A stretch of 32,539 nt of DNA from Bacteroidia bacterium (GTDB lineage: Bacteria; Bacteroidota; Bacteroidia; NS11-12g; UBA9320): assembly GCA_017857855.1 (NCBI GenBank), contig JAFMCI010000020.1, forward strand, positions 1 through 32,539, read 5' to 3'. How positions within the stretch are numbered: position 1 is the stretch's first letter; the number at the start of each line of letters is the position of its first letter. Below, piece by piece: positions 14,143 through 21,196 of this stretch. The notes below the pieces were generated by a model. The model saw only the letters and a list, made by a program, of their open reading frames with translations, searched no databases and was not told the origin of the DNA. The position numbers and the translations under genes were made by a program.

Positions 14143-14745
14143 ATGAATACGAAAGAACACTGGGAAAATATATATTCCACCAAGACACCTGCTGAAGTAA
14201 GCTGGACACAGGCGTATCCTGAAACATCTCTAGAACTAATAGCACAAACCTTGGTAAGTAAAAATGTGCCAATCATTGATATAGGTGGTGGCGATAGTTT
14301 GGTCGTAGACTTCTTGCTAAAACTGGGGTATACCGATATCACCGTTTTAGATATCTCTGCAGCTGCTATCGAAAGAGCAAAGAAACGACTAGGTGCCGAT
14401 GCTACAAAGGTAGAATGGCTGGTAACTGACATCTTGGATTTTAAACCTACTAAAACATATGAAGTGTGGCATGACCGTGCAGTTTTTCATTTTCTAAGAG
14501 AGCAAGAAGAAGTAAGTGCGTATGTAGACATGGTAAAACAGTATGCAGAAAATGTTATTCTAGCTACTTTCTCGCCTTCTGGCCCACTCAAATGTAGTGG
14601 TCTTGAAATTACACAGTATGATCATAATCAAATGGAGGATACATTTGGAAGTGAGTTTAGTGTAGAAAATTACTTTACTGCCGATCACGTTACGCCATTT
14701 AATACGGTTCAAAATTTTTCGTTCGCTAGGATGAAGAAGAAATAA
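14143..14745 (+). CDS. Class I SAM-dependent methyltransferase
   Basis: A 200-residue cytoplasmic methyltransferase with a Rossmann-like fold. The start HWENIYSTKTPAEVSW is typical of a group that includes thiopurine/TehB-like small methyltransferases. Motif I is I-I-D-I-G-G-G-D-S (about 44-52), the motif II acidic end is TVLDIS (about 66-71), and WLVTDILDF is the motif around the adenine. It is followed by WHDRAVFHFL, characteristic of the group. The substrate cannot be read from the sequence. It starts 20 bp after the DUF3820 gene and is followed by 166 bp without a gene. Weak-acid, tellurite or thiol detoxification is possible by family analogy only. Confidence 0.85.
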   Translation: MNTKEHWENIYSTKTPAEVSWTQAYPETSLELIAQTLVSKNVPIIDIGGGDSLVVDFLLKLGYTDITVLDISAAAIERAKKRLGADATKVEWLVTDILDFKPTKTYEVWHDRAVFHFLREQEEVSAYVDMVKQYAENVILATFSPSGPLKCSGLEITQYDHNQMEDTFGSEFSVENYFTADHVTPFNTVQNFSFARMKKK

Positions 14746-14825
14746 TAAAAGCTTATTTTTGAACGTAATTATCTTATAAACAGGTAGTAAGGTTAAATTT
14801 TATCAAGAATTATAGGTGTCATTCT

Positions 14826-14849
14826 AAATAAGTAGAGTCTTACTTATTT
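14826..14849. promoter_or_regulatory. 9-bp perfect inverted repeat upstream of the porin gene
   Basis: AAATAAGTA (14826-14834), a 6-base spacer, then TACTTATTT (14841-14849). It lies 36 bases upstream of the porin -7 element. It has no GC in the outer stem and no clear T-tail, so an operator is at least as likely as a terminator. Confidence 0.4.
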
Positions 14850-14885
14850 TTAGCATTTCTTATTTTTAATTAATCCAAATAAAAA

Positions 14886-14893
14886 TAGATTTG
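14886..14893 (+). promoter_or_regulatory. Bacteroidota -7 element of the porin operon
   Basis: TAGATTTG matches TAnnTTTG, 18 bases before the ATG at 14912. The expected -33 position has only T-rich sequence without TTG. Confidence 0.5.
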
Positions 14894-14911
14894 TACCACT
14901 AAAAAACCTAT

Positions 14912-16099
14912 ATGAAATTATTTTACACCCTTGTGGCGCTATTAATTGGTCATTTGAGCATGGCGCAAGAAATGGATAGTTTTACCAATTACCATATGAA
15001 TGCGGCTCGTACACTATTGGAGAGCAAAGACGGAAATCTACTTATGGGTGCATATGGCGAAGTGCATTACGAACAACCTTTTGGGAACAACACCCAATAC
15101 AATGGTGATTTAGATGCAGAACGAATGGTGCTACTTTTTGGCTATAAATTCAACAATAAGACATCGTTTATCAGTGAAATAGAAATAGAGCATATTAAAG
15201 AAGTTTACCTGGAGCAAGCTTTTTTAAATTACCAAGCAAAACCTTGGCTAAATGTGCAAGCAGGATTATTACTTATCCCAATGGGACTGATGAACGAGTA
15301 CCACGAGCCTACTATTTTTAATGGGGTTAACAGACCCGTAATATCGAATGCATTGTACCCAAGTACCTGGAGAGAAATAGGAGCGGGGATTGCAGGTAAC
15401 CTGCCAAGTGCGGCACTCAGATACCAACTTTATCTCGTAAATGGCCCTATGAGTTATGATAATGGAGCTAAATTAAAAGGTAGCGAGCCCTTACGTGGAG
15501 CACGTCAAAAAGGAGCACAATCTACCATGACCAGACCTGATCTTTCTGGAAAGATAAATTATTACGGCATAAAGGGATTTGATATAGGTCTTGCAGGATA
15601 TGTAGGTACTACCGAATCTAGTCTTTTCGAAAACATTCATAGAGATAGCATAAGTCAAATGGCAAGAGCAGATAGCTCCATAGTAGGCGTGCAAATGGTT
15701 GGTTTTGATTTTAGATATCAAGCGAAGAAACTGCAAGCAAAAGGGGAATTATTCTTTTCGAATTTTACCAATACCTCTTCATACAATGCGTTTACAGAAA
15801 GGGATCTAGGCTCAAGTATGTTTGGGTATTATGGGGAAGTTGGTTATGATGTTTCGAGCCTGTTGGGAATGCAAAAGAAAATCGTGCCTTTTGTACGATA
15901 CTCACAATACAATACTCATCAATCGGTAGATGAATCTATGATGCCCAATAAGGCGTATGACCGCACAGTGGTAACCGCTGGTTTCTCATTTTTTCTAAAT
16001 GACGCTGTTGTTATTAAAGCTGATTATCAAAATTTTAGCAATGCACTTCAAAGTCAAACGCATCAATTTAACTCGGGTATAGGTTTTTGGTTTAGATAG
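14912..16099 (+). CDS. Outer-membrane porin-like beta barrel
   Basis: A 395-residue exported barrel. The signal peptide (residues 1-18, HLSMA-Q) is followed by alternating strands with aromatic girdles and ends in ...FNSGIGFWFR, with an aromatic residue next to the end (F394), as in outer-membrane proteins. Segments LLFGYKFNNKTSFISEIEIEH, EQAFLNYQ...LNVQAGLLLIPMG and NRPVISNALYPSTWREIGAG are like the phosphate/pyrophosphate-selective OprO/OprP-type porins common in Bacteroidota. The pore substrate cannot be read. It begins a likely operon: the FMN-binding protein gene follows after 8 bp, then the Crp/Fnr gene. In this setting transport of a sulfur oxyanion is an attractive but unproven idea. 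Confidence 0.8.
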   Translation: MKLFYTLVALLIGHLSMAQEMDSFTNYHMNAARTLLESKDGNLLMGAYGEVHYEQPFGNNTQYNGDLDAERMVLLFGYKFNNKTSFISEIEIEHIKEVYLEQAFLNYQAKPWLNVQAGLLLIPMGLMNEYHEPTIFNGVNRPVISNALYPSTWREIGAGIAGNLPSAALRYQLYLVNGPMSYDNGAKLKGSEPLRGARQKGAQSTMTRPDLSGKINYYGIKGFDIGLAGYVGTTESSLFENIHRDSISQMARADSSIVGVQMVGFDFRYQAKKLQAKGELFFSNFTNTSSYNAFTERDLGSSMFGYYGEVGYDVSSLLGMQKKIVPFVRYSQYNTHQSVDESMMPNKAYDRTVVTAGFSFFLNDAVVIKADYQNFSNALQSQTHQFNSGIGFWFR

Positions 16100-16107
16100 T
16101 ATAGTTA

Positions 16108-16641
16108 GTGAAGCATAGATTTTACATAGGTATATTTTTTGTGCTAGGCGGCTTCACCTTAGCTGCTTCTTACAGCTATTTGCCCAGTTATCTCAGTCAT
16201 AAAATGAGCAAGCAGTTAAACAAGTTATTTGATCAAGAAGTGCTTATCCGAGAACTTTCTATGAATGATACGTTAGCACTAAATCATCAGTTATACGAGG
16301 TGTATAGTGCTGATACGCTAGCAGGATATTCTATGATTACGAGAGCATTAGGATGTAAAATAGGTGGTTGTGACAAGCCCTCTGAAGATTCTATTTCGTT
16401 TGAGCAATTTTACTTTTTCACCGCTTTTGATAAGGATAAAAATATCAAAAAAGTAAGGGTACTGGAATACACATCAGACCATGGTTATCAGATTGCCAAC
16501 AAGGGCTGGCTCAAACAATTTGAAAAAGGAAGGTCATTTAGTGTCGGAGAAAATATAGATGCTATCTCTGGTGCTACTATTTCTGTAAAGTCCATTACTG
16601 CCGGAGTTAATGAGCAGTTGCGCATTATTCAAAAAAAGTAA
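16108..16641 (+). CDS. Exported FMN-binding domain protein (flavinylation motif)
   Basis: A 177-residue protein with an N-terminal signal or anchor (about residues 6-21) and an FMN-binding domain like NqrC/RnfG subunits. The diagnostic motif is D151-A-I-S-G-A-T-I-S159, where ApbE links FMN covalently to a Ser/Thr. The upstream part (residues 60-130) has the usual 'Y.....LAGY......D.....F.F...FD.......V.V.....HGY.I' arrangement. A C83-x4-C88 pair (GCKIGGCDK) is present and could be a disulfide or bind a metal. It would carry electrons in the envelope; no apbE or Nqr/Rnf gene is in the window. GTG start at 16108, 8 bp after the porin stop, and 21 bp before the Crp/Fnr gene, so co-transcription is likely. 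Confidence 0.86.
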   Translation: MKHRFYIGIFFVLGGFTLAASYSYLPSYLSHKMSKQLNKLFDQEVLIRELSMNDTLALNHQLYEVYSADTLAGYSMITRALGCKIGGCDKPSEDSISFEQFYFFTAFDKDKNIKKVRVLEYTSDHGYQIANKGWLKQFEKGRSFSVGENIDAISGATISVKSITAGVNEQLRIIQKK

Positions 16642-16662
16642 GAAAAAGTATAAATTCGTAGC

Positions 16663-17322
16663 ATGTCAATAATCCCATTCGATATCACGTGTTATAATCA
16701 CTTGCACAGTCGTTTTCAAAATGTGTTTAACGAAGAACTGATCAATGAGATTTGCTATAATGGTCAATTAAAAGTATTTAATACAGACGAAATCATCATT
16801 AACATAGGGGATAAAATGGAGTATTTCCCCCTTATAGTTTCAGGTACTTTAAAAATATTAACGGAAGATAGTGACGGTAAAGAACTGCTATTATACTACC
16901 TCGAAATGGGGGATACGTGCGCTGTAACACTTAATCTGGCCACTCACGGAAGCAAGAGTAAAATAAGAGCTATTGCAGAAGACCAATGCGAATTGTTATT
17001 CTTACCTATTGTTAAAGTGGATGATTGGATGGTTAAGTACAAAGAATGGCGCCACTTTATCATGGAAACCTACAACTACAGGTTAAATGAAATGCTGGAC
17101 GCTATTGATACGCTTGCGTTTCACAATATGGAAGAAAGACTTATGAAGTACCTGCGAGATAAAGCAATGGTAACAGGCAGTGTCGAAATACAAGGTACTC
17201 ATTTCCAAATTGCCAATGATATGCATTCAAGCCGTGTTGTAATATCGCGTATGCTGGCTAAGCTTGAGAAAGATGGCTTGTTAACACATAGTAGAAATAA
17301 GATTATCTTACACAAACTTTAG
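16663..17322 (+). CDS. Crp/Fnr-family transcriptional regulator
   Basis: A 219-residue regulator. The N-terminal cyclic-nucleotide-like beta-roll domain (about 25-120) is followed by a long dimer helix (about 125-150) and a C-terminal winged helix (about 155-219) with the recognition segment SSRVVISRMLAKLEKDGLL. Four cysteines (C10, C31, C86, C109) are spread over the sensor part. They do not have the spacing of the FNR iron-sulfur cluster, but C86 in G-D-T-C-A-V falls at a spot often Cys in Bacteroidota homologues next to TauE genes, so thiol sensing is possible (inference). It lies between the FMN-binding and TauE genes. The palindrome at 18488-18505 is a plausible binding site. Ligand unknown. 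Confidence 0.92.
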   Translation: MSIIPFDITCYNHLHSRFQNVFNEELINEICYNGQLKVFNTDEIIINIGDKMEYFPLIVSGTLKILTEDSDGKELLLYYLEMGDTCAVTLNLATHGSKSKIRAIAEDQCELLFLPIVKVDDWMVKYKEWRHFIMETYNYRLNEMLDAIDTLAFHNMEERLMKYLRDKAMVTGSVEIQGTHFQIANDMHSSRVVISRMLAKLEKDGLLTHSRNKIILHKL

Positions 17323-17368
17323 ATTAACCGTCTTGTAGTGTAACCTAAGTTCCTTAAGAAACATTAGC

Positions 17369-18187
17369 ATGTCTGCATATTTGCTCCTAAATATGCAATT
17401 AAGTCAACTTTATGGATTTGTTCTAGCCATTCTAATGGGTTTTACATTAGGTCTTTTTGGCGGCGGTGGATCAATTCTAGCAGTGCCTATTTTTGTGTAT
17501 GTATTTCATATTGAACCTCTTCTCGCTACCGCATATTCCCTTTGGGTGGTAGGTTTATCTGCCCTAGTAGGCGCATTTAAAAAACATTTAGACCAACAAA
17601 TAGAGTACAAAGTTGGTCTACTTTTTGTCGTGCCATCGGCGCTTACCGTTTTTTTAACACGTAGATTTTTATTACCACAAATTCCTCTGCAACTGTTCAC
17701 TTTTGGAAATGTAATTCTCACTAAAAACATGGCAATTATGCTTTTTTTTAGTACGGTTATGCTCCTAGCAGCCTATTCAATGATTCGCGGAATTTCTATG
17801 CATCACTCAGGCACTGAGCCTGATAAAATAAAAACGGTTATTTCAGGAGCTGTTGTTGGCCTAGTTACCAGCTTGGTAGGAGCAGGTGGCGGGTTTCTTA
17901 TTGTACCCGCTTTAGTCATCTTATTGGGTTTAAATATGTCACAGGCCGTCGGAACATCTCTCGCCATAATTGCATTGAACAGTATGTCCGGTTTTATGGG
18001 TGATATAATAGGAGGGAGACTTATGGATTGGTCATTTTTACTCACGTTTAGCGTTTTTGCTCTCATAGGAATGATGCTTGGACTTTATAGTTCTAAAAAA
18101 ATAGAAGTAGGTATACTTAAAAAGTACTTTGGATTCTTTGTACTTGCAATGGCTATCCTAATAATAATCAAAGAACTACTATCCTAA
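17369..18187 (+). CDS. TauE/SafE-family sulfur-anion exporter
   Basis: A 272-residue inner-membrane protein with about eight helices in two repeats. Each repeat starts with a glycine-rich motif: GFTLGLFGGGGSILAVPIFVYV (about 24-45) and GLVTSLVGAGGGFLIVPALVIL in the second half. These are the hallmark of TauE/SafE (DUF81) proteins, which export sulfite, thiosulfate or sulfoacetate-type anions. ATG 17369 is used; ATG 17393, eight codons later, would also give a normal protein. It follows the Crp/Fnr gene by 46 bp and precedes the persulfide dioxygenase gene, a pairing also seen in sulfide detoxification operons such as staphylococcal cst. That supports sulfite or thiosulfate as the cargo. Confidence 0.9.
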   Translation: MSAYLLLNMQLSQLYGFVLAILMGFTLGLFGGGGSILAVPIFVYVFHIEPLLATAYSLWVVGLSALVGAFKKHLDQQIEYKVGLLFVVPSALTVFLTRRFLLPQIPLQLFTFGNVILTKNMAIMLFFSTVMLLAAYSMIRGISMHHSGTEPDKIKTVISGAVVGLVTSLVGAGGGFLIVPALVILLGLNMSQAVGTSLAIIALNSMSGFMGDIIGGRLMDWSFLLTFSVFALIGMMLGLYSSKKIEVGILKKYFGFFVLAMAILIIIKELLS

Positions 18188-18487: not shown

Positions 18488-18505
18488 TTGTAACTTACGT
18501 GACAA
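18488..18505. promoter_or_regulatory. Crp/Fnr-type operator upstream of the persulfide dioxygenase gene
   Basis: TTGTAACTTACGTGACAA is an 18-base near-palindrome: seven of nine base pairs are symmetric (TTGTnACnTAnGTnACAA). Crp/Fnr proteins bind two such half-sites. Its centre is about 40 bases before the transcription start expected from the -7 element at 18525-18532. That is the usual place of a class II activator site, and the -33 motif is absent. The likely binder is the Crp/Fnr protein encoded at 16663-17322. Confidence 0.6.
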
Positions 18506-18524
18506 TGCAGTGCCAACTTCATCT

Positions 18525-18532
18525 TAACTTTG
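18525..18532 (+). promoter_or_regulatory. -7 element of the persulfide dioxygenase gene
   Basis: TAACTTTG matches TAnnTTTG and is 21 bases before the ATG at 18554. No TTG at the -33 position; the palindrome 19 bases upstream probably substitutes for it. Confidence 0.6.
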
Positions 18533-18553: not shown

Positions 18554-19954
18554 ATGAAAATAGAACAGATTTATACCGGCTGCCTTGCTCAAGGAGCTTA
18601 TTACATTCAAAGCAACGGAGAAGTAGCGATTATTGACCCACTTAGAGAAGTAGACGACTATATCGCTAGGGCTGAAAAAGACGGTGCTAAAATCAAGTAT
18701 ATCTTTGAAACCCATTTTCATGCTGACTTTGTAAGTGGACATATTACACTTGCCGAAAAAACAGGAGCAACTATCGTTTACGGTCCCACGGCTAAGACAG
18801 GATTTGCATCTCACATAGCTACGGACAATGAAGTGTTCAAAGTAGGGGATATTACCATAACCGCTCTACATACACCGGGTCATACCATGGAAAGTACTAC
18901 GTACTTGCTAAAAGATGCTGAGGGAAAAGATCATTGTATTTTTTCAGGTGACACCTTGTTTTTAGGTGATGTAGGTAGACCAGATCTTGCTCAAAAGGCA
19001 GCTACTATGACACAAGAAGAACTAGCCGGAATATTATTTGACAGTCTACGCAATAAAATAATGACGCTAGCGGATGATGTTATTGTGTACCCAGCTCACG
19101 GAGCAGGTAGTGCATGTGGCAAGAATATGATGAAAGAAACAGTAGATTCTCTAGGTAACCAAAAACATATGAATTATGCATTGCGGGCAGACATGACTAA
19201 GGAAGAGTTTGTTGCAGAAGTAACAGACGGATTAGCACCACCTCCAGCATATTTCCCCATGAATGTGGCTATGAATAGAGATGGATATACCAATATTTCT
19301 GAAGTAATTGCACAAGGAAGTAAAGCACTGTCTCCTGCAGAGTTCGAAGCTGCGGCTAACGAAACAGATGCAGTAATACTGGACACCCGAAAAGAAACCG
19401 TTTTTGTCAAAGGATTCATTCCTCAAAGTATTTTTATAGGAATTGATGGAGGTTTTGCCCCATGGGTAGGTTCATTGGTAAAAGATGTTAAACAGCCCAT
19501 ACTCTTAGTTGCAGATGAAGACAGAATTGAGGAAATAATTACGCGTCTTAGTCGCGTAGGATTTGACAACACCATCGGTTATTTAAAAGGTGGTTTTGAA
19601 GCGTGGATTGCAGAGAATAGAGAAATAGATTCTATCCACTCCATTAGCGCTGCAGATTTTGAAAAAGAAGTTACCGAAAACCACTTGCCTGTTTTTGATG
19701 TACGTAAAGAAGGAGAATTTTCAAGTGGTCATTTAGACATAGCAAACCATGTTTGCCTAAGCGGTATTAATGAGCATCTTGCGGAGTTTCCAAAGGATAA
19801 AAACTTCTATGTTCATTGTGCTGGCGGATATCGTTCTGTGATAGCAGCTTCCATTCTTAAAATGAGAGGCTACCACAATTTTACCGATATAGCAGGTGGA
19901 TTTGGGGCCATAAAAACAACCAATTTATCGATAGTAGAGTCTGTTGTAGCATAG
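18554..19954 (+). CDS. Persulfide dioxygenase fused to two rhodanese domains (CstB-like)
   Basis: A 466-residue cytoplasmic enzyme in three parts. Residues 1-245 are a metallo-beta-lactamase-fold persulfide dioxygenase of the ETHE1 type: T53-H-F-H-A-D-F59 with H54, H56 and D58, H110 in TPGH, D133 in SGDT, GDVGRPDL and H182 in YPAHGAGSACG. Residues 262-352 are a rhodanese fold with no catalytic cysteine (LLVADED at the loop). Residues 362-462 are an active-looking rhodanese with C422 in H-C-A-G-G-Y-R-S. This order matches staphylococcal CstB, which turns persulfides into thiosulfate through sulfite. I chose ATG 18554 since it begins the fold; the upstream TTG at 18530 lies inside the -7 element. 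Divergent promoter features and a Crp/Fnr-like operator lie just upstream. Confidence 0.92.
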   Translation: MKIEQIYTGCLAQGAYYIQSNGEVAIIDPLREVDDYIARAEKDGAKIKYIFETHFHADFVSGHITLAEKTGATIVYGPTAKTGFASHIATDNEVFKVGDITITALHTPGHTMESTTYLLKDAEGKDHCIFSGDTLFLGDVGRPDLAQKAATMTQEELAGILFDSLRNKIMTLADDVIVYPAHGAGSACGKNMMKETVDSLGNQKHMNYALRADMTKEEFVAEVTDGLAPPPAYFPMNVAMNRDGYTNISEVIAQGSKALSPAEFEAAANETDAVILDTRKETVFVKGFIPQSIFIGIDGGFAPWVGSLVKDVKQPILLVADEDRIEEIITRLSRVGFDNTIGYLKGGFEAWIAENREIDSIHSISAADFEKEVTENHLPVFDVRKEGEFSSGHLDIANHVCLSGINEHLAEFPKDKNFYVHCAGGYRSVIAASILKMRGYHNFTDIAGGFGAIKTTNLSIVESVVA

Positions 19955-20005: not shown

Positions 20006-21196
20006 ATGAATAAAAATACACTCGCACAAATCGGCCGCATCTTATTAAGTTTTCTTTTTGTTTTTGGAGCAGTAAGCAAGCTTGTTTCTATGCCGTTTTT
20101 CGACGGTATGGTTGCTGAATTATTACTAGGTAAAGATTATTTTGATAATCCAGTAGGAATGATTTGGGTGCAATGGCTCACACGCATACTGGTTGCAGTA
20201 GAGTTGGTATTGGGCTTAGCCTTGTTGCAAAACAAATGGTTTAAAAAAATAGTGCTACCCGCTACTTTGGGTATGTTAGTCCTTTTTACCATCCACCTGT
20301 TCTACGAGGGATTTAGACAAGTCAACGGATTTACAGAAGGTAATTGTGGTTGTTTTGGTGATGTATTACCCATGACTAATCTGGAGTCTATCATCAAAAA
20401 CGTGATAGGTATGCTCATAGGGATTTATGTATTGCTTACATTCAAAAAAGAAGATGTTTTTAAGTCTTGGGTTTCTCCGACGTTACTGGGTGTAATCACC
20501 TTATTTACGTTAAGTTTTGGGATTAAAAGCTACGAAGCTGTGGCTCCAAGTGTATTAGACGAATTGGGCACGATACCAGCTATTGAGCTGATGCAAGCAG
20601 ATAGTATTGCACAGGCTGCAATAGCCGAATCAGAAACTATTATTGCTGAAACAGAAATAGATGTTACTGAAAAAATTATAAATAAGCCGTCTGTCGATTC
20701 TGTTAAAACATCTAAAGTAGTTTCAGTAAAAACACCAAGTGACTTAACACTAGAATTATTGTATAAATACGCCCCGTCTATTAAGTCCCAAAATCTAGCT
20801 TCGGGTATCAAAATGGTGTGCCTTTTTAGCATGACGTGCAGCCATTGCCAGGAGGTATACAGAGACCTATCCGCGATGAAGTCGAGTGGTAAGCTACCTA
20901 AACTCTTTTTGGTTAATTATGGTACAGAGTATGAGCAAAACTACTTTTTCTCTCAAGCAGGAGATTCAAAAGATGCACATACTAGAACCGAGGATTTCAC
21001 CCATTTTAAACGAATGTTAGAAGGTAAAACCTATCCACGTATTTTGGTAATAAAAAATGGTAAAATAGAAAAAGAGTGGGATGTAGATACCTATGAAAAA
21101 TCATATGTAATGCGCTATTTCGGTATCGAAAAACTAGAAGAAAAAAAATCAGGTGGGCTCCAACTAGAGTTACAAAGCGGCGGAAGCCCTTGGTAA
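20006..21196 (+). CDS. BT_3928-type membrane protein: MauE/DoxX-like helices plus thioredoxin-like domain
   Basis: A 396-residue inner-membrane protein. The first part (about 1-175) has a four-helix MauE/DoxX-like bundle plus one more helix, with the MauE mark N113-C-G-C-F-G-D119, a paired cysteine at the membrane face. A flexible linker rich in E, S, T and V (about 180-245) leads to a thioredoxin-like domain with C278-S-H-C281 and the cis-proline region TYPRILV. MauE-like proteins work with thiol-disulfide exchange in the envelope, so electron or thiol transfer between membrane and thioredoxin domain is likely. Its own promoter precedes it. Its place after the persulfide dioxygenase suggests handling of thiols or persulfides, though BT_3928-type genes also occur elsewhere. 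Confidence 0.85.
   Translation: MNKNTLAQIGRILLSFLFVFGAVSKLVSMPFFDGMVAELLLGKDYFDNPVGMIWVQWLTRILVAVELVLGLALLQNKWFKKIVLPATLGMLVLFTIHLFYEGFRQVNGFTEGNCGCFGDVLPMTNLESIIKNVIGMLIGIYVLLTFKKEDVFKSWVSPTLLGVITLFTLSFGIKSYEAVAPSVLDELGTIPAIELMQADSIAQAAIAESETIIAETEIDVTEKIINKPSVDSVKTSKVVSVKTPSDLTLELLYKYAPSIKSQNLASGIKMVCLFSMTCSHCQEVYRDLSAMKSSGKLPKLFLVNYGTEYEQNYFFSQAGDSKDAHTRTEDFTHFKRMLEGKTYPRILVIKNGKIEKEWDVDTYEKSYVMRYFGIEKLEEKKSGGLQLELQSGGSPW

Follow-up and report, generated by a model that had tools for sequence, protein, structure and literature searches.

The question raised by this locus is which protein controls a gene that encodes a metallo-beta-lactamase-fold and rhodanese protein, and in answer to what signal. 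In the window (the whole stretch of 32,539 nucleotides that was analyzed), a preliminary description had placed a Crp/Fnr-type operator at a class II position before this gene, and its reading of the DNA is exact: the 18-mer is symmetric at seven of nine pairs, 19 bases separate it from a promoter element, and a Crp/Fnr gene lies two genes upstream, with a TauE gene between. The relevant features are the following.

16663 to 17322, + strand: Crp/Fnr regulator of 219 aa, with recognition helix SSRVVISR and Cys86
17340 to 17353, + strand: second candidate operator, GTAACCTAAGTTCC, with the top matrix score of the window (16.7), before TauE
17369 to 18187, + strand: TauE/SafE-family permease (domain match), likely start at 17393
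17376 to 17383, + strand: CATATTTG, a -7-like element 22 nt after the second operator
18488 to 18505, + strand: candidate Crp/Fnr-type operator, TTGTAACTTACGTGACAA, with conserved core GTAAC-TTAC-GTGAC at 18490 to 18503, in a TGTnA-N6-TnACA frame centered at 18496.5
18525 to 18532, + strand: TAACTTTG, a -7 element (TAnnTTTG), 21 nt after the operator core, placed at -12 to -5 by the mapped starts of Flavobacterium psychrophilum
18537, + strand: predicted transcription start (+1), from the spacing, which puts the operator center at -40.5
18554 to 19954, + strand: protein of 466 aa with Lactamase_B and Rhodanese domains, a probable persulfide dioxygenase/sulfurtransferase

The symmetry of the palindrome is not evidence for an operator, and was rejected as such, because 18-mers with at least seven of nine symmetric pairs occur 67 times in the window against a mean of 65.2 after shuffling. 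This frequency is what a chance palindrome without function would have in its favor. The combination with the promoter element is rarer. The window has a single 7/9 palindrome with TAnnTTTG 17 to 23 nt downstream (shuffled mean, 0.35) and a single GTnAC-N4-GTnAC core with TAnnTTTG at 20 to 23 nt (shuffled mean, 0.0 in 20 shuffles), and in the 2.2-Mb genome the only occurrence of GTAAC-N4-GnnAC-N(20-23)-TAnnTTTG is the window site itself, with 0 for the reversed control. The bare motif shows no genome-wide excess (23 matches versus 38 in the control and 88 versus 114 in a second count), so a global regulon was rejected and the regulon in the source genome must be small. The matrix score of the window operator, from a matrix whose training set shares some loci with those later scored, is 14.1, below the 10% quantile of the training sites (15.5), because the right arm, GTGAC, departs from the consensus. 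The site is one mismatch from the HcpR2 operator, GTAACnnnnGTTAC. Elsewhere in the window, GTGACATTGGTTAC at 1284 to 1297 scores 15.3 inside ORF 996-2192 and was set aside as probably a chance match; in the source genome, the exact motif matches at C9:329 and C65:512 lie within ORFs and were likewise set aside.

Footprinting of orthologous upstream regions, the check that the preliminary description itself had named, bears out the palindrome. A search detected the regulator in 11 of 19 sampled genomes of the genus, and the palindrome before the dioxygenase gene is kept in 8 of the 10 that have both the regulator and a readable 5' region (G000, G001, G002, G003, G006, G007, G010, and G017; weak in G006, with a score of 7.3). 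It is absent in G004 and G015, both of which have the regulator. Among the genomes without the regulator, it was found in none of four (G009, G013, G014, and the main copy of G016), the best candidate being a site with a score of 3.0 in G016. G001 has a regulator that is 97% identical and no TauE between regulator and target, and the operator is still there. This co-occurrence with the regulator (8/10 versus 0/4), together with the conservation and the spacing described below, makes a chance origin scarcely credible, and the operator at 18488 to 18505 is almost certainly real.

A de novo scan was made of 80 loci, the best of 254 named ones that surround relatives of the regulator; a peptide pattern whose end lies just ahead of Cys86 had a part in the choice of these relatives. 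Exact inverted repeats with 5-base arms and spacers of 2 to 10 bases were counted across intergenic DNA (111 kb) and coding DNA (766 kb). GTAAC-N4-GTTAC ranks first, with 45 intergenic and 0 coding occurrences, and allowing one mismatch adds 34 intergenic and 16 coding occurrences in the same 80 loci. TAnnTTTG follows 21 to 23 nt downstream at 41 of the 79 intergenic sites (32 at 22 nt, 6 at 21 nt, and 3 at 23 nt), compared with 2.3% of 20,000 random intergenic positions at the wider distance of 18 to 25 nt. A second test started from the target, for which an orthologue of the dioxygenase-rhodanese gene was found at an E value of ≤1e-110 in 227 of 296 genomes of the class; 140 such stretches, together with 15 loci from the genus and the 80 named loci, gave 186 gene starts and 175 distinct upstream regions. 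GTnA-N6-TnAC occurs within 200 nt upstream of the gene in 91 of the 175 regions (shuffled mean, 7.8; maximum, 14; 50 shuffles), and 56 of the 175 also have TAnnTTT at 20 to 24 nt (shuffled mean, 0.15; maximum, 1; 100 shuffles). The pattern is missing in the other 84, including 13 with a linked related Crp gene, so the arrangement is common and not universal. At the family level, the composite search for motif and promoter gave 17 matches versus 8 in the control, and single matches there are thus not proof. In Robiginitalea (L121 and L124), two dioxygenase-rhodanese genes lie in tandem, and each has an operator of its own.

The layout of the promoter bears on how a bound regulator would act. 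As the preliminary description held, a -33 motif is absent, there being no TTG where the element would sit, and TAACTTTG ends 21 bases before the target ATG at 18554. Mapped starts in F. psychrophilum place TAnnTTTG at -12 to -5 (PMC9723704), and with the modal spacing of 22 nt seen in the relatives this puts the operator center at -41.5, which is the center of the Escherichia coli Crp class II operator (PMC5957442). In the window, the spacing from core to -7 element is 21 nt and not the modal 22, and the computed center is -40.5, where the preliminary description had put it close to -40. The predicted class II placement is therefore supported more firmly than had been claimed, and the regulator at such a promoter would probably act as an activator. 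The operator also abuts the promoter, and a repressor whose binding overlaps the promoter could block RNA polymerase until sulfide arrives, in the manner of the persulfide regulators CstR and SqrR, which are repressors (PMC9774590). A repressor would tolerate other positions, however, while the tight 22-nt spacing and the -41.5 center are the signature of a class II activator (PMC5957442) and a -33 element is not visible, so that repression appears decidedly improbable.

The account of the palindrome before the dioxygenase gene stands, but a second site before TauE had been missed. The element CATATTTG lies inside the annotated start of TauE, so the gene may begin at the in-frame ATG at 17393, a shift that leaves its domain match unaffected. 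The same layout of operator and promoter precedes TauE in L046 and L048, with variants in L053 and L056; it is lacking in six other TauE genes of the set, including that of L068, which lies directly behind the regulator. In G000 and G017, TauE separates the regulator from the dioxygenase gene, and in G018 it follows the regulator; G001, with its 97% identical regulator, has no TauE there, which points to a recent gain or loss. Upstream of these genes, a methyltransferase, a 395-aa protein without a Pfam match, an FMN_bind protein, and the Crp/Fnr regulator (14143 to 17322) form a row that is conserved in most same-genus loci. A gap of 21 bases separates the FMN_bind gene from the start of the Crp gene, so the two are probably cotranscribed, and no operator of its own was seen before the Crp/Fnr gene in the window.

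The regulator belongs to the CRP/FNR family by its PF00027 (cNMP_binding) and PF13545 (HTH_Crp_2) matches, both above cut-off, and by its fold, which Foldseek matched to CRP/FNR chains with a best E value of 7.2e-14. Its helix, SSRVVISR, retains the equivalents of CRP Arg180 and Arg185, and Val (V192) replaces CRP Glu181, as it does in all 80 of the best 80 of 254 relatives; of 26 further Crp/Fnr proteins from the order, 19 were readable at the equivalent position, and all 19 have Glu. The protein does not match a cAMP-dependent CRP, since T127/S128 correspond to M144 and L145 and Glu181 to V192 (equivalences by alignment reading), nor an FNR-type Fe-S protein, since the N-terminal Cys cluster is absent, with only C10 and C31 ahead of C86. 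The preliminary description had not seen that the site has CRP spacing with the specificity TGTAAC-N4-GTTACA, which goes with a regulator that lacks Glu181. Mutants of E. coli CRP at Glu181, Val included, have reportedly been found by Ebright and co-workers to no longer require G at position 7. Here, 29 of the 52 Val-type half-sites carry A and 16 carry G at position 7, and among the 10 Glu-type half-sites 8 carry G (Fisher P = 0.0097 for G with Glu versus Val), in a sample with five Glu-type sites, spacing relaxed for the Glu type alone, half-sites that are not independent, one hand-picked match (L244), and one dropped as spurious (L347). A looser count gives G in 8 of 12 with Glu versus 16 of 62 with Val, and the covariation of residue 181 with position 7 is only suggestive. 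The Glu-type sites include one from a G016 locus with the helix TSRETVTR and the operator TGTGATTAAGGTCACA. In L036 (G016:C3:60192-64106), a second dioxygenase-like gene, with stops in its matches, lies behind a Crp/Fnr gene of the Glu181 type that lacks Cys86, and this locus carries the canonical CRP site TGTGATTAAGGTCACA.

Cys86 aligns, by alignment reading, to CRP Gly74. It is present in all 80 of the best 80 of 254 relatives, a set picked partly by a peptide ending just before it; in stretches around the dioxygenase gene it is present in 46 of 47 Val-type and 10 of 11 Glu-type Crp proteins (56 of 58 together), and it occurs in 1 of the 26 other Crp/Fnr proteins of the order. Cysteines are also found at positions 92 and 93 in 68 and 66 of the 80 relatives, respectively, where the window protein has L92 and A93. 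The structure model of the regulator has a mean pLDDT of 82.6, and because its pTM is 0.62 and its pLDDT falls below 50 at residues 90 to 94, close to Cys86, no claim is made about the geometry of the pocket.

Two HTH_Crp_2 proteins were found in the source genome, and both carry the helix SSRVVISR. The second, on contig C18 (G000:C18:933-1547), adjoins genes that by eye resemble moaA and mog of molybdenum cofactor synthesis. Very probably one of this pair, the neighbor or its same-helix paralogue, binds the operator. That the paralogue (42% identical) should be the main binder in place of the neighbor would fit the shared helix and the fact that the two are the only HTH_Crp_2 matches in the genome. 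Within the genus, however, only G000 and G003 yielded the paralogue, while G001, G002, G006, G007, G010, and G017 have the site and gave the neighbor alone in the search for relatives, with a longer, Glu-type or unread CRP-like protein in G006 and G017. The neighbor thus probably suffices in these six genomes, and a leading role for the paralogue is unlikely.

The product of the target gene has its metallo-beta-lactamase domain first and rhodanese domains after it. Although similar to persulfide dioxygenase-rhodanese fusions, it falls short of the cut-off for the Blh bifunctional sulfur transferase/dioxygenase (NCBIfam NF040641), with 59 bits versus 625; it was not assigned to Blh, and we infer its dioxygenase activity from its domains. 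A gene for a MauE/BT_3928-family membrane protein (20006 to 21196) directly follows, and a shorter MauE gene is preceded by operator and promoter in G019, G028, and G002 (L153, L165, and L156). Among 44 genes behind promoter-linked sites in the relatives, 18 were dioxygenase-rhodanese genes, 20 others were scanned for domains, and 6 were left unscanned. The 20 scanned genes include those for YeeE/YedE (Sulf_transp, PF04143), three SulP permeases that carry STAS, two rhodaneses, a membrane protein resembling YgaP, and a possible sulfide:quinone oxidoreductase (SQR) of the Pyr_redox_2 type, as well as those for cytochrome c, a Tll0287-like protein, AhpC/TSA, DUF983, and an efflux outer-membrane protein; the regulator itself appears in two loci, and one protein has no match. 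The family-level composite matches add MauE/DoxX-like, rhodanese, YgaP-TM, and HMA proteins. In the source genome, the sole other exact intergenic motif (C18:21226, on the contig of the paralogue) is flanked on one side by the gene for a membrane protein of 231 aa and on the other by that for a sulfite-oxidase-like molybdoenzyme (PF00174 and PF03404). Sulfite is a known product of persulfide dioxygenases, which makes the gene set coherent. Judged by gene context and operator, the best reading is a class II-activated set of sulfide and sulfane-sulfur genes in Bacteroidota, so that the dioxygenase gene of the preliminary description would belong to a wider sulfur oxidation regulon that it had not recognized.

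The same operator and regulator could also answer a nonsulfur input, such as oxygen, NO, heme, or another ligand, as HcpR2 presumably does with this motif, and the sulfur genes would then be under redox control. The motif equals the consensus of HcpR2 (PMC1274295), genes for cytochrome c, AhpC/TSA, and HMA proteins are found behind some sites, and the window protein lacks the Cys pair at 92 and 93. On the other hand, hcp (PF03063) had no match in any of the 19 genomes of the genus, sulfur genes make up most of the targets, and Cys86 is retained even where the recognition helix has changed. A nonsulfur input is accordingly the less probable reading, though a serious one, and the evidence leans modestly toward sulfur as the signal.

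The explanation that we consider likely as a whole is that of a class II operator, bound by the neighbor or its paralogue, in a regulon for the detoxification of sulfide and sulfane sulfur. A Crp/Fnr dimer would bind TGTAAC-N4-GTTACA-like DNA about 41 bases before the start; its class II contact would compensate for the missing -33 element of the TAnnTTTG promoter and switch on the dioxygenase-rhodanese gene, and TauE would probably be switched on through the second site at 17340. Reactive sulfur species may well be the input, read through thiols, and the prime candidate for the sensor is Cys86, which lies in what used to be the cyclic-nucleotide pocket. The conserved operator, the fixed distance to the promoter, the gene context, and the conserved helix and cysteine are observed directly; binding, activation in place of repression, and the signal are deduced from them. 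More tentatively, and with a little less than even confidence, we suggest that in a Bacteroidota clade of CRP/FNR proteins the nucleotide pocket has become a Cys86-based persulfide or polysulfide sensor, that its members are class II activators of a sulfide oxidation regulon (SQR-like protein, persulfide dioxygenase, rhodaneses, sulfur and sulfite transport, and sulfite oxidation), and that they read an HcpR2-like operator through the replacement of Glu181 by Val.

If true, this would put a name to the regulator, operator, and promoter layout of sulfide detoxification in Bacteroidota, for which no described sulfide regulator was found in the open-licence literature, and it would provide a motif-plus-spacing rule for target prediction. 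It would also offer a natural set of CRP/FNR proteins for comparing one specificity residue and one operator base across genomes. The regulator fold would be new to the account of sulfane-sulfur sensing in the available part of a review, which names CstR, SqrR/BigR, PigS, FisR, OxyR, LasR, and OhrR and not CRP/FNR (PMC9774590). A Crp/Fnr regulon for sulfide or persulfide in Bacteroidota was likewise not found in the open-licence literature, and the available text of a 2025 study on the evolution of CRP/FNR DNA binding contains no word beginning with "bacteroid" (PMC12531629). The motif itself is already published for HcpR2; the sulfur regulon looks undescribed.

Among known systems, the HcpR2 branch comes close in its operator, GTAACnnnnGTTAC, which was tied to the loss of Glu181, with Pro there (Rodionov et al. 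2005, PMC1274295), and in its small local regulon and occurrence in Bacteroides. In HcpR2, residue 181 is mostly Pro and the target is hcp, whereas Val (80/80 in the best 80 of 254 relatives), sulfur genes, and the Cys86 clade are found here and hcp was not found in 19 genomes of the genus, so membership in HcpR2 was rejected. The E. coli CRP class II system shares the TGTnA-N6-TnACA frame, the equivalents of R180 and R185, and the center at -41.5, but here Glu181 is replaced by Val, position 7 is mixed (A over G), the cAMP contacts are lost, and the promoter has the Bacteroidota -7 element. The target product has the metallo-beta-lactamase fold and rhodanese in common with the Blh and ETHE1 persulfide dioxygenases, differing from Blh in its score and in its domain order. 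SqrR/BigR, CstR, and FisR have targets of the same persulfide dioxygenase/rhodanese type and sense through thiols, as is proposed here, but they are ArsR-, CsoR-, and Fis-family proteins, whereas the regulator of this locus has a CRP/FNR fold and the layout of a class II activator.
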